Shown in pieces: positions 33,168-43,356 of a stretch of 64,000 nucleotides of DNA. The position numbers and the translations under genes are program-made. The stretch lies in the NCBI GenBank assembly GCA_900473045.1, contig UCKS01000028.1:62001-126000 (forward strand), read 5' to 3'. The notes beneath the pieces are model-generated. The model did no database searches and was not told the DNA's origin. It saw only the letters and a list, made by a program, of their open reading frames with translations. This stretch comes from Hyphomicrobiales bacterium. Its GTDB lineage: Bacteria > Pseudomonadota > Alphaproteobacteria > Rhizobiales > Rhizobiaceae. Each line of letters begins with the position of its first letter. Position 1 is the first letter of the stretch.

Positions 33168-33290
33168 CAGCTGATGCATTTTGGTGGCTTTTTTCCTCCC
33201 AGTGCCACCGCAGCAGCTGTTCCCCTCTGGAGGTTTAATTACCTTCATAACTATAAAGGGCCCAAGTTTTTCTTGTGGCCCTCTTTTTTT
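33168..33290 (+). ncRNA. abcR1: AbcR-type trans-acting small RNA, copy 1
   Basis: About 122 nt begin at CAGCTGATGCA and end in a Rho-independent terminator (AGGGCC/GGCCCT stem, T run 33284-33290). A 5' hairpin GGTGGC/GCCACC (33183-33188 with 33204-33209) displays TCCTCCCA in its loop, an anti-Shine-Dalgarno motif. A second exposed segment holds GTTCCCCTCTGG. AbcR RNAs of Rhizobiales repress ABC-transporter and other mRNAs through such motifs, usually with Hfq. A -10-like CATACC lies at 33157-33162 and a conserved CATTG at 33132. Position after lsrB matches S. meliloti abcR1/abcR2. The 5' end is estimated. Confidence 0.88.
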
Positions 33291-33376: not shown

Positions 33377-33496
33377 CAGCTGATGCACATTGGTGGTCTT
33401 TTTCCTCCCAGTACCACCGCAGCAGCTGTTCCCCTCTGGAGGTTTTATAACCTTCACATCTAAAAGGGCCCTGTCCTCCAGTGGCCCTCTTTTTTT
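33377..33496 (+). ncRNA. abcR2: AbcR-type trans-acting small RNA, copy 2
   Basis: About 120 nt, a tandem paralogue 209 bp downstream of copy 1. The 5' hairpin is GGTGGT/ACCACC where copy 1 has GGTGGC/GCCACC, a compensatory base-pair change that supports the structure. The loop TCCTCCCA and the segment GTTCCCCTCTGGAGG are unchanged. Its terminator stem AGGGCC/GGCCCT (33465-33470, 33483-33488) precedes a T run ending 33496. A -10-like CATACG lies at 33368-33373 and CATTG at 33341. It is transcribed separately from copy 1, which has its own terminator. Confidence 0.88.
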
Positions 33497-38845: not shown

Positions 38846-39739
38846 ATGAACAGGACTGAACCCAGCTGGGATTTCTACCGCACCTTCCTGACCGTGCTGC
38901 AGGAAGGATCGCTGTCGGCCGCCGCGCGCGAACTCGGGCTGACGCAGCCGACCATCGGCCGGCATATCGACGCGCTGGAAGCCAGTATCGGCTTTCAGTT
39001 GTTCATTCGCTCGCCGCAGGGGCTGATCCCGACGGAGGCAGCGGTCGACCTGAGACCGCATGCCGAACAGTTGGCCGCGAATGCCGCTGCCCTGCTCCGG
39101 GCCGCGACCGGACAGGGCGGCGGCGTGCGCGGTACCGTGCGGATCAGCGCCAGTGAAGTGATCGGTATCGAGGTGCTGCCACCGATGCTGACAGCGCTCA
39201 GTGAACGGCATCCGGACCTCGTCATCGAGCTATCGCTGTCGGATGCCGTCGAGGACCTGTTGCGCCAGGAAGCCGATATCGCCGTGCGCATGGTCGAGCC
39301 GCAACAGGACGCGCTGATTACCCGCCGGATCGGCGGCATCCCGCTGGGACTGCATGCGCACCGGCGCTATCTCGACAAACATGGTGCTCCGGACAAGCTG
39401 GAAGACCTGCTTGATCATCGGACCATCGGCTTTGACCGCGAAAGCGCATTTGTCCGGGCCATCCGCAAGCGCGTACCGCTGATTGAGCTGATGCGCCCTT
39501 CCCTCCGGGCAGATAGCAATCTGGCGCAGCTGGCAGCCATCCGCGCCGGCTTCGGCATCGGCGTCTGCCAGGTGGAGCTGGCCAGACGCGATCCGGAGAT
39601 CGTCAGGCTGTTCGAAAAAGAGTTCGCGCTGCCGCTCGAAACCTTCGTCGTCATGCACGAAAACCTCAAAACCACGCCGCGTTGCCGCGCCACCTTCGAT
39701 GCGCTGGTGGAGGGATTGTTGGCCTACATCGGCAGGTGA
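38846..39739 (+). CDS. LysR-family transcriptional regulator
   Basis: This 297-residue regulator has the LysR helix-turn-helix (WDFYRTFLTVLQEGSLSAAARELGLTQPTIGRHIDALEASIGFQLF). A substrate-binding domain follows (VRISASEVIGIEVLPPMLTALSERHPDLVIELSLSDAVEDLLRQEADIAVRMV). It is divergent from the NAD(P)-binding protein gene. The ATG at 38846 was chosen. Its 3' end overlaps the convergent MFS gene by 16 bp. Confidence 0.93.
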   Translation: MNRTEPSWDFYRTFLTVLQEGSLSAAARELGLTQPTIGRHIDALEASIGFQLFIRSPQGLIPTEAAVDLRPHAEQLAANAAALLRAATGQGGGVRGTVRISASEVIGIEVLPPMLTALSERHPDLVIELSLSDAVEDLLRQEADIAVRMVEPQQDALITRRIGGIPLGLHAHRRYLDKHGAPDKLEDLLDHRTIGFDRESAFVRAIRKRVPLIELMRPSLRADSNLAQLAAIRAGFGIGVCQVELARRDPEIVRLFEKEFALPLETFVVMHENLKTTPRCRATFDALVEGLLAYIGR

Positions 39740-40923
39740 TCGGACGGCACGCCGCCGGCTGGGGCCTGCACCAGCCCCTGCGATCCCCGCCGTGGCGCCA
39801 GAGCCTTGACCGAAAACAACGCATAGATGATCAGCGGCAGGCAGACGAGATAGGACGTGCGGATGCCGGCATGTTCGGCGATGAAGCCGAGCAGCGGTGG
39901 CGCCAGGAAGAAGACGATGAACGTTACCTGGCCGAGGGCTGCGACATTCACCTGTGCTGCCCTGTCGGTGCGCTGGGCGGCGGCCGAGACTGCCAGCGGA
40001 TAGACCGCACTGCAGCCGCCGCCCATCAGGGCGAAACCGAACAGCGCGATATAGGCATGTGGAGCCAGCCAGACGGCGGTAAGACCGATGGCCGACAGGA
40101 CAAGCAGCACCGAGGCGACGTTGCGGGCACCGAACCGGTCGACGACCGGGTCGATGAACAGCCGGGCCATCGCCATGAAGAAGGTAAACAGCGTCAGGCC
40201 AAGACCGCCGATGAACGGCTCGACGGCAAAGACGTCGCGCATATAGATCGCCGACCAATCGATCCCCGCACCTTCGACGAGGAAGGCGGCAATGCCGATG
40301 ATGCAGAGTGGCAGGAGACCAAGGGTCGGCACGGCAAACAGCGGCGCCTTGGCCTCATGCGAAACGGCGCGGGCCGGTGCATTGCGGATACCCGAGATGG
40401 CAAAGATGCCGACGACCAGCACCACAACGAACGTTACCACCAGATGAAGCTGCATGGAGATTTCGCCCTGCCGAACGCCAGACGCAATCAGTGCGGTGAC
40501 GAAGAAACCGAGGCTCCAGAAACCATGGGCGCGGTTCATGATGCCACGCCCGAGCCGCGCCTCCAGCCGGTCGATTTCGACATTGAGATTGATTTCGAGC
40601 GCGCCGGCAAGCAGGCCGGCGACAAAGAGTACGCAGAACACCAGTGGCGCGGCACCAACCCAGGGAACGATCGCAAACGAGGCGGCCGTGCCGAGAATGG
40701 TGATGAAGGCCGTCGTCCGTGCGCCCAGATGGGCGATCAGCGGCGAGGAGAATGTCAGCGAGATCAGCGCCCCGACCGCCATGCCGATGAGGGTCAGTCC
40801 GAGTTCGGATTTGTTGACGCCAAGCGCCACCTGCAGATCCGGCATGCGGGCCAGCAACGCGCCGAGCGACACGGCAAACAGGAAGAAACAGGTATAGATC
40901 CTGTGATGCGGCGCAATGGTCAT
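39724..40923 (-). CDS. MFS transporter
   Basis: This 399-residue protein has about 12 membrane segments. It has an early LLARMPDLQVALGVNKSELGLTLIG segment and NRAHGFWSLGFFVTALIASGV, a pattern like YbjJ/fucose-permease-type MFS carriers. Conserved AGLLAGALEINLNVEIDRLE lies in TM4-5. The substrate is unknown. The ATG at 40923 has GAGGAG upstream. It is convergent with the LysR gene and overlaps it by 16 bp. Confidence 0.9.
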   Translation of the reverse strand: MTIAPHHRIYTCFFLFAVSLGALLARMPDLQVALGVNKSELGLTLIGMAVGALISLTFSSPLIAHLGARTTAFITILGTAASFAIVPWVGAAPLVFCVLFVAGLLAGALEINLNVEIDRLEARLGRGIMNRAHGFWSLGFFVTALIASGVRQGEISMQLHLVVTFVVVLVVGIFAISGIRNAPARAVSHEAKAPLFAVPTLGLLPLCIIGIAAFLVEGAGIDWSAIYMRDVFAVEPFIGGLGLTLFTFFMAMARLFIDPVVDRFGARNVASVLLVLSAIGLTAVWLAPHAYIALFGFALMGGGCSAVYPLAVSAAAQRTDRAAQVNVAALGQVTFIVFFLAPPLLGFIAEHAGIRTSYLVCLPLIIYALFSVKALAPRRGSQGLVQAPAGGVPSDHLPM

Positions 40924-41123
40924 GATGGGGCTCCTCGATAGGCCGTTGTGTACCGGGATTTGGGGGACAGCGGAAGCCGTCCGGTCTGTTCGAACTCCCG
41001 ATTTTCCGGCCGGTGGCTAGATATTGCCACTTGAGGTGATGACGGTGGGAAATGGACACTCGGCCTCTCGCGAAGATCCGCAGCCTCTCCGCGGCCTGGT
41101 GGTTTAAAACCAGGAGGCCCCAT

Positions 41124-41248
41124 CTCCCCTCATTACCGGGCCTGTCCCGGTAATCCAGCCACGCGATATCCGTCGCGTGAAAGAGGTCTTTCAGCACCGC
41201 AGACGCGGTGCTTCTGGATTACCGCCACAAGGGCGGTAATGAGGGGAG
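41124..41248 (+). repeat. 125-bp structured repeat, copy A, upstream of GIY-YIG gene
   Basis: The element starts CTCCCCTCATTACCG and ends CGGTAATGAGGGGAG, a perfect 15-bp terminal inverted repeat. Inside are smaller hairpins: CCGGGC/CCCGG, CGCGAT/GTCGCG and GCACCGC-agac-GCGGTGC. A second copy of the same length and orientation lies at 41647-41771, with compensatory changes in the internal stems. Together they flank the GIY-YIG gene. Upstream sequence to 40924 shows no gene. Confidence 0.88.
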
Positions 41249-41294
41249 TTTGGGGGCATCTTGAAAAATTGCTATAGCCAGTCATGATGCACGC

Positions 41295-41585
41295 ATGAAG
41301 GGTTACGTCTATATTCTCGCATCCAAGCGCAACGGAACGATTTATACCGGCGTCACCCGGGACCTGCCCGGCCGGCTTTTCGAACATCAGAACAACCTGA
41401 CGCCCGGATTTACATCCCGGTATGGCGTGAAAACACTGGTTTGGTTTGAGGAACATGATCTTTTGATTGACGCGATCCAGCGCGAAAAAAGCATCAAGAA
41501 ATATCCCCGGAGATGGAAGCTCAACCTGATTGAAGCCATGAACCCGGAGTGGGCGGATATTTCGCACTATCTGCACGGGTTGTAG
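41295..41585 (+). CDS. Small GIY-YIG endonuclease (YhbQ/UPF0213-like), repeat-flanked
   Basis: This 96-residue protein is a single GIY-YIG domain. YVYILASKRNGTIYTGVTRDLPGRLFEHQN holds the YVY and YTGVT pair (the GIY-YIG motif) and the catalytic Arg. HDLLIDAIQREKSIKKYPRRWKLNLIE holds the catalytic Glu. Free-standing proteins of this type are widespread in alphaproteobacteria and often sit beside palindromic repeats; their biological role is unresolved. The gene lies between two directly oriented 125-bp structured repeats (41124-41248 and 41647-41771). The ATG at 41295 was chosen. Confidence 0.9.
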   Translation: MKGYVYILASKRNGTIYTGVTRDLPGRLFEHQNNLTPGFTSRYGVKTLVWFEEHDLLIDAIQREKSIKKYPRRWKLNLIEAMNPEWADISHYLHGL

Positions 41586-41646
41586 CTTGGCAAAGGGATG
41601 TGCAACTTCCCGGCGACACCTGATATCAGGGGTGGCGCGTCCTATC

Positions 41647-41771
41647 CTCCCCTCATTACCGGGCTTGCCCCGGTAATCCAGCGACGCGACGACCGTCGCG
41701 TGAAAAGAATCTTGCGCGCCGCAGACGCGGCGCAACTGGATTACCGCCACAAGGGCGGTAATGAGGGAGAG
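41647..41771 (+). repeat. 125-bp structured repeat, copy B, downstream of GIY-YIG gene
   Basis: The same length and orientation as copy A. The left end CTCCCCTCATTACCG is identical to copy A; the right end has one base inserted or changed in its GAGGG tract. The internal stem is GCGCCGC-agac-GCGGCGC against GCACCGC-agac-GCGGTGC in copy A, a compensatory change. It ends 100 bp from the aatA stop on the other strand. Confidence 0.88.
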
Positions 41772-41871
41772 TTGGGGCGCGAGACGGGCCAAGCCAAGAA
41801 TGCACGCAGCCTCAACGGAAAATCCCGCCGTCTCCGGCGGGATCGTCATTGGAGTGAATGAACGGCGTCCT

Positions 41872-43356
<1,485 letters not shown>

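Follow-up and report, generated by a model that had tools for sequence, protein, structure and literature searches.

A small GIY-YIG nuclease gene bracketed by CGTC-type REP pairs in a Rhizobiaceae genome, and its association with these repeats across bacteria

Introduction

The window analysed here is a stretch of 64,000 nucleotides from a Rhizobiaceae genome (Hyphomicrobiales bacterium, GenBank assembly GCA_900473045.1, contig UCKS01000028.1, positions 62,001 to 126,000). It contains a short nuclease gene placed between two copies of one structured repeat. The question raised by this locus is whether gene and repeats belong together and, if they do, what the nuclease may do to the repeats. 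Rhizobia reportedly carry RIME elements, said to have been described by Osteras in 1995 as intergenic palindromic mosaics of about 100 bp, and these are possibly of the same kind as the 125-bp element of the window.

A family of palindromes relevant to this question is that of the CGTC REPs. According to their published survey (Di Nocera et al. 2013, PMC3733652), these are present in all alphaproteobacterial orders and include dRS3 of Neisseria and RPE-4 and RPE-6 of Rickettsia conorii. Each has an unpaired CGTC (CCTC/TGTC) tag, a loop of 4-5 nt on an 8-9-bp stem whose first bases are AT, and a CCA-like tail. Most are found in pairs with the tags outside (HH), and the CGTC-3 spacers of A. tumefaciens contain two stem-loops. 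In the words of the survey, these REPs "apparently lack a dedicated transposase", and it reports no transposase genes flanked by them.

Results

Anatomy of the 125-bp elements

Two same-orientation 125-bp repeats around a 96-residue GIY-YIG gene were the core of the original prediction, and direct reading of the sequence places copies A and B and the gene at exactly these coordinates (Table 1). The two copies align in two gap-free blocks, one of 59 nt with 90% identity and one of 62 nt with 87%. Terminal inverted repeats had also been described, with one end of copy B degenerate. They are perfect in copy A (CTCCCCTCATTACCG / CGGTAATGAGGGGAG), and it is the right end of copy B that is degenerate (GAGGGAGAG). 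Each 125-mer is composed of two 29-nt inverted REPs with tags outward, flanking a spacer with two more hairpins. No gene remnant was noticed within the 125-mers of the window.

Table 1. Features of the locus, in window coordinates
Feature	Position	Strand
MFS transporter gene at one end of the insertion site; direct neighbour of the aminotransferase gene in relatives that lack the unit	39724..40923	-
Copy A: CGTC-type REP pair, CCTC tags outward, spacer with two hairpins	41124..41248	+
REP A1, CCTC tag outward: CCTC-ATTACCGGG-CCTGT-CCCGGTAAT-CC	41128..41156	+
Copy A spacer hairpin 1: CACGCGAT/ATCC/GTCGCGTG	41160..41179	+
Copy A spacer hairpin 2: GCACCGC/AGAC/GCGGTGC, plus closing A-T	41193..41212	+
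REP A2, CCTC tag outward	41216..41244	-
Single-domain GIY-YIG nuclease gene, 96 aa; Y6, Y17, G19, R27, E64 and N83 present	41295..41585	+
Copy B: second REP pair, tags outward, spacer with two hairpins	41647..41771	+
REP B1, CCTC tag outward	41651..41679	+
REP B2, CCTC tag outward	41738..41766	-
Class I/II aminotransferase gene, other flank	41872..43242	-

These REPs have the tag, stem, loop and tail of the CGTC format (CCTC-ATTACCGGG-(5 nt)-CCCGGTAAT-CC(A)), and the pairs are likewise arranged with tags outside (HH) around a spacer with two stem-loops. The window elements are CGTC REPs. The difference from the published account is the GIY-YIG gene bracketed by them here. The REP type of the window is CCTC-ATTACCG, and two other REP subclasses of the source genome are CGTC-ATTCCTGTG and CGTC-ATCCTCGGG.

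The elements were folded as single-stranded DNA, in stretches of 137 nt each that include 6 nt of flank per side, giving z values of -10.9 (A) and -7.0 (B) against 200 shuffles each. The GCACCGC/GCGGTGC stem of copy A becomes GCGCCGC/GCGGCGC in copy B, a change that had already been pointed out, and the fold is conserved over 12 elements. This alignment holds the two of the window, nine of 32 distinct pairs and one other element, picked for similar spacer length. Of 34 base pairs, 26 have changed on both sides, while pairing is kept in 96.8% of cells; the covariation score is 0.713, versus 0.227 when shuffled and at most 0.097 when slid. Since these paired changes far exceed both controls, the four hairpins are conserved as structures.

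A stable fold with compensatory changes would also be expected if the short gene were surrounded by transcribed structures that end or stabilise RNAs, and the survey reports that REPs are plausibly transcribed in many cases (PMC3733652). The region 40900-42000 has no Rfam match at E<=1, by which identity with an Rfam RNA family was rejected. Such a regulatory RNA would also leave unexplained the covariation of REP and nuclease types and the empty sites described below. As a full account of the locus we find it scarcely credible; an RNA role may exist in addition to a mobile element. Elsewhere in the window, a direct repeat at 33169-33287 and 33378-33493 corresponds to ar15, a small RNA of alphaproteobacteria, in two tandem copies (Rfam RF02345, 104.8 and 98.3 bits).

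The GIY-YIG protein

The open reading frame matches PF01541 (E 2.9e-14). It has the features of the GIY-YIG superfamily, namely the GIY...YIG tyrosines, the central Arg, the C-terminal Glu and the Asn, and two alignments, with 54 and 44 sequences, show no variation at Y17, G19, R27, E64 or N83. Eight members of the family were also run against Pfam and gave GIY-YIG, with T5orf172 too in three. No HUH family was matched by the window protein or by these eight, and identity as an HUH/RAYT enzyme was rejected. Pfam gave no accessory DNA-binding domain in the window protein. Across this large family, the annotation reads "GIY-YIG nuclease family protein", "excinuclease ABC subunit C" or hypothetical.

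The predicted structure has a mean pLDDT of 95.8. Its closest fold is that of the UPF0213 protein BH0048 (1zg2, E 5e-5), followed by Slx1 (6seh) at E 0.015, which is above 0.01; sequence identity in the matches to these two groups is 22-29%. Slx1 cuts branched DNA (PMC6902002). It combines GIY-YIG with a C-terminal RING finger, which the 96-residue protein does not have. Judging from the modelled fold, Slx1 and UPF0213 would be its nearest structural relatives; unlike them, the window gene is linked to repeats.

The catalytic domain is shared with the GIY-YIG homing endonucleases of the I-TevI type. The window protein differs from these by its single domain, its free-standing intergenic gene with no intron or intein seen, and the palindromic repeats at either side. 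As for selection, the median dN/dS is 0.077 over 197 pairs with dS 0.05-2 from 26 rhizobial sequences, and the gene is therefore under purifying selection.

REPs and the gene in the source genome and genus

The element has 36 matches in the source genome at E<=10, the reverse strands of both copies included. For the REP pattern, 63 matches stand against 5 GIY-YIG genes of the small kind. All five of these genes have REPs on both sides, and two of them are broken, C71 by an in-frame stop and C48 by a frame break.

The genus, taken as Pararhizobium, was represented by 26 genomes, source included. The gene is present in 15 of them, at 25 places that correspond to roughly ten syntenic sites. A REP is found within 700 bp of all 25 genes, and on both sides of 20. 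Stops or frame breaks are present in at least six of these copies, including the two of the source genome. A further decayed copy, of subclass C and with two REPs, was missed by the protein search and found via Pfam (L343, G022:C40:8070-8168).

The bracketing is not random. Among 367 mechanically called ORFs (100 aa or longer) from 464 kb of the source genome, 20 have a REP on either side at up to 350 bp, and one has REPs on both sides. UvrC genes of the genus have a REP in the stretch read in one of 25 cases (L330); UvrC was called from frame length, with 14 loci spanning the whole gene and 11 spanning 1.5 kb each side of the domain, where the far gene end is partly outside. Other GIY-YIG genes have a REP in none of six cases (L299, a partial 156-aa frame, and L338-L342). 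The decayed copy L343 was left out of the controls because it is of the small kind and has two REPs.

The original prediction asked for adjacency above expectation, and 25/25 genus genes with a REP, versus 20/367 ORFs with one on either side and 1/367 on both, agree with this. It also named two patterns that would speak against it, repeats scattered with no link to GIY-YIG genes and GIY-YIG genes in synteny with no repeats. The repeats are indeed scattered, yet every genus gene has a REP beside it, and not one of the 25 small GIY-YIG genes stands without at least one REP alongside.

REPs and the gene across bacteria

A larger sample of 80 named loci, mostly rhizobial and with at least eight genus loci already among the 25, has a REP within 350 bp at 64 and on both sides at 41, against 1.9% of random 350-bp windows taken from these loci. 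From genomes of the phylum, 30 further loci have a REP at 17, versus 4.6% of random windows.

The association was also measured with a repeat-agnostic test, a local alignment of the 250 bp upstream with the reverse complement of the 250 bp downstream, at a cut-off score of 16. One named locus with too little flank was left out, together with the source genome's own copy (L166; 29 of the 30 kept). Scores of at least 16 were obtained for 46/79 named, 18/29 further phylum and 7/20 non-alphaproteobacterial loci. The controls for inverted repeats only gave 3/468 positions and, in another set, 0/50.

Under one definition, REP or inverted repeat, 149 loci in four sets can be put together, in counts that are not independent because loci share ancestry and sets overlap. 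This definition holds for 126/149 loci versus 14/500 control positions, 457 of the latter drawn from named loci. By set, these are 70/80 named, 25/29 further phylum, 15/20 non-alphaproteobacterial and 16/20 further alphaproteobacterial loci. REPs on both sides are present at 58/149 loci and at 0/500 control positions. The remaining 23 loci have mechanically neither (19/129 before the last 20 were added). Many of the REP-negative loci read by eye show near-miss palindromes that escape the REP finder, for instance by a longer loop or an ACCC tail; this reading left out L201, L202, L206, L207 and L215, outside the alphaproteobacteria, and four of the last 20 loci.

Plasmid collections contributed ten loci, with CGTC/CCTC REPs on both sides in four (Neisseria gonorrhoeae, of the CGTCATTCCCGCG type, Azospirillum lipoferum, Aeromonas caviae and Rhizobium sp. 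CIAT894), on one side in two (S. meliloti and R. tumorigenes) and none by the finder in four. The finder-negative loci, from Novosphingobium, Sphingobium, Planktothrix and Spirosoma, have CGTC/TGTC-tagged palindromes beside the gene by eye only. For the R. tumorigenes locus, eight records contain the whole stretch and many the left part only. In the Planktothrix agardhii plasmid (L239), the GIY-YIG gene, with TGTC-tagged repeats nearby, has a type IIL restriction-modification enzyme on one side and DISARM drmA on the other.

In terms of co-occurrence, the gene is present in 54 of 79 phylum genomes with at least 10 REP-pattern matches versus 48 of 319 others (398 genomes, odds ratio 12), with phylogeny uncorrected and one REP format covered. 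At a threshold of 20 matches, the numbers are 39/48 versus 63/350 (odds ratio 20). There are mismatches in both directions: 25/79 REP-rich genomes, some of them incomplete, have no gene match, and 48/319 REP-poor genomes have the gene.

The unit is also seen between sufB and sufC in several alphaproteobacteria (L033, L076, L082, L084, L237, L142 and L163), placed by annotation in Azospirillum and by the SufB end motif in the others. The REP type of the sufB-sufC units in Azospirillum differs from that in Pararhizobium. This place may be an ancient insertion or a hot spot for insertion inside the Fe-S operon.

A recurrent place such as sufB-sufC, the strong purifying selection and a fold nearest to UPF0213 and Slx1 would be in line with a housekeeping role, in which a Slx1-like cruciform or hairpin nuclease is kept to control REPs and is favoured for local cutting or regulation, with no movement of REPs. 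Such a gene would not need a private REP variant at each side. Its distribution is also patchy (15/26 in the genus), with up to six copies per genome, decayed copies and insertion polymorphism, all of which count against this role, and we regard it as improbable.

Orientation, spacing and matching of the REPs

REPs on both sides were found at 54 of 129 loci. Single REPs facing outward account for 27 of these loci. In 18 the gene lies between two REP pairs, the arrangement of the window, so that the REPs next to it are the inner ones, and 9 are asymmetric. Left and right REPs match each other, sharing the first 8 stem bases in 24 of the 27 outward pairs. The tag-to-tag length was measured at eight loci. 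Three sites with unrelated flanks but nucleases of one subclass give 373, 374 and 374 bp, four other loci give 381-398 bp, and the value in another subclass is 434 bp.

The type of REP covaries with the type of nuclease. Within the genus, four nuclease subclasses correspond to four REP types, two subclasses resting on a single site each. Over 64 loci, REP distance and protein distance are correlated (r 0.58, 0/2000 permutations), in a comparison that is confounded with taxonomy.

The most telling case is the REP variant of the window. In the 6.8-Mb source genome, all four of its copies are at the window locus, and it has not spread beyond. It is found at the gene in 7/7 copies in G012 and 2/2 in G020. 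In G018, where the gene is decayed, two of six are at the gene locus. Two genomes without the gene have it once each, and it is absent from 20 genomes.

With orientation and matching at hand, a simple coincidence can be weighed, in which REPs and a small mobile gene both favour intergenic space and the bracketing is meaningless. REPs are numerous in these genomes and are reported as extragenic in the survey (PMC3733652). Controls are low (1/367 ORFs and 0/500 positions with REPs on both sides, 1/25 UvrC with a REP on any side), and orientation, spacing and sequence matching are non-random. Intergenic hitchhiking was rejected on the ORF, control-position and UvrC comparisons, and the chance that it explains the locus seems to us very small.

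The insertion site beside the aminotransferase gene

The unit lies just past a terminator-like hairpin of the aminotransferase gene, which we take to be aatA. The site between this gene and the MFS gene is polymorphic among the 26 genomes. The gene or a remnant with REPs is present in four, source included. Neither gene nor repeat is found in 21, six of which were judged by the REP pattern alone, which also misses decayed pairs; the neighbours are 184-217 bp apart in 15 of the 21. The remaining genome, G016, has a lone decayed REP pair and no gene. Relatives that lack the unit and keep one repeat had been anticipated, and G016 shows this state at the window's own site.

An aminotransferase-gene tree covering 25 of the 26 genomes shows the occupied genomes scattered, with G019, the nearest to the source, empty; the unit has therefore been gained or lost more than once. 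Gain versus loss is not fully polarised at this site or at the second one described below.

REP pairs also vary in number. In G012 (L046), flanking pairs are multiplied in tandem, each copy with a pair and about 105-115 bp of flank. Tandem copies of this make-up beside the gene also differ in number between S. meliloti Ak57 (L242) and Sinorhizobium sp. M103 (L246). The hflX-mazG interval of Sinorhizobium, considered as an empty site from BLAST lengths, was rejected as such: the gene is present in both strains and it is the number of upstream REP pairs that differs.

A second site with a deletion derivative and scars

The second site, beside a gene read as HAD-type, was recovered from 25 of the 26 genomes, at 26 places. 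The source genome has one full-length unit here, with a frame-broken gene, and L269 is a decayed unit. In G016 (L258), an internal deletion has spared a REP, both ends of the gene and a further REP in the second copy. This derivative is tandemly duplicated with the end of the neighbouring gene, which explains the double copy; transposition was rejected as its origin.

Scars are seen in two genomes. In L255 (G010), the left tag (CTCCGTCA) now abuts the right flank, the unit having been lost along with about 30 bp, and in L260 (G018) a perfect 40-bp palindrome is made of two outer REP halves. L263 and L271 are gene-less REP pairs; the likeness of their spacers to the leader of the gene is weak and is not relied on. 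Six places are clean empty sites and twelve have other sequence. Among side observations, the REP of L261 (G005) is interrupted in its loop by an apparent insertion sequence, and in four genomes (L254, L256, L257 and L262) the gap is taken up by an unlike intergenic element, possibly of another repeat family, in which AAAATCAACATCTTAGC-like motifs are inverted.

No target-site duplication was definable at either site, and no integration in the act was found among the loci examined. The breaks at REPs fit a nuclease that cuts REPs, as support and not as proof, given that palindromes also break and slip unaided.

Discussion

We consider it probable that CGTC REPs have a dedicated enzyme in this Slx1-like GIY-YIG nuclease of a single domain, which would recognise its own REP as a hairpin or cruciform, cut it, and so cause the unit that encodes it to be excised and copied, and gene-less pairs likewise in trans. 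The unit would then be a small mobile element, a nuclease gene bracketed by the CGTC-type REPs on which it acts. REPs that become single-stranded during replication or repair could extrude as hairpins or cruciforms. The nuclease might cut where it meets both the branched structure and the tag and stem that mark its own REP variant, and breaks at two outward REPs could release or delete the intervening segment or start its copying to a new place. Acting in trans, the enzyme could use gene-less REP pairs as non-autonomous derivatives, as happens with the REPINs of RAYT. From these patterns we infer REP cleavage, the need for the nuclease in REP spread and the transposition chemistry.

The main rival is homing, and it differs in whether REPs are the target or the ends of the element. 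Here, a free-standing GIY-YIG endonuclease would land in REPs via cutting and break repair, and the REPs would spread otherwise. GIY-YIG is a classic homing-endonuclease domain. At 27 of the 54 both-side loci, the gene stands in place of the spacer between two outward REPs, and in the source genome REPs outnumber genes, with 63 pattern matches versus 5. Homing needs an uninterrupted, gene-less cognate site; at the aminotransferase site, both gene and repeat are missing between intact neighbours in 15 of 26 relatives, although REPs elsewhere could be cognate. Gene and repeat therefore come and go together at this site, with the exception of G016. The protein has no accessory DNA-binding domain, and matched left and right REPs with near-fixed lengths within a subclass suit the ends of an element better than halves of a chance target. 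Homing appears unlikely to us.

If the nuclease is the dedicated REP enzyme, the system resembles RAYT/REPIN/REPtron: a small nuclease gene is flanked by REPs of its own type, and scattered pairs are presumed non-autonomous. RAYT is an HUH tyrosine transposase with a GTAG tag, whereas the window has GIY-YIG and a CGTC/CCTC tag. Because it fails on both enzyme superfamily and tag, the window unit is not a member of the RAYT-REP system. The RAYT-like, repeat-associated nuclease of the original prediction is thus supported as regards the association with REPs, and mobilisation by the nuclease would be its presumed role. The prediction had further proposed a non-autonomous module. The roles are more likely reversed, the unit with the gene being the autonomous form and gene-less REP pairs the non-autonomous one. 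Compared to MITEs, which are short, non-autonomous, derived from an autonomous element and have terminal inverted repeats, L258 is one clear internal deletion derivative between REPs.

A wider proposal can be made only tentatively, and we hold it to be rather doubtful as a whole. The units would be a new class of transposable element, with a compact form of about 375-400 bp, two inverted palindromes and a Slx1-like nuclease, possibly the smallest autonomous one. It would generate most CGTC repeats of Pseudomonadota, dRS3 of Neisseria included, and, with TGTC-tagged repeats, act in Cyanobacteria and Bacteroidota.

In terms of novelty, the repeats are known, and the protein family is known by name. 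No paper linking GIY-YIG genes with REPs was found among those listed from the open-licence literature, preprints excluded. GIY-YIG is, as far as we know, the second nuclease superfamily tied to REPs, and a categorically new transposition chemistry is possible.

The origin and spread of CGTC REPs had been left open for want of an enzyme in the survey (PMC3733652). Now that there is a candidate of 96 residues, with a fold predicted to be structure-specific, their origin and spread become directly testable. This candidate would suggest that parasites made of a nuclease plus a palindrome evolved at least twice, once with HUH and once with GIY-YIG enzymes, and it would give a function to a large GIY-YIG family.
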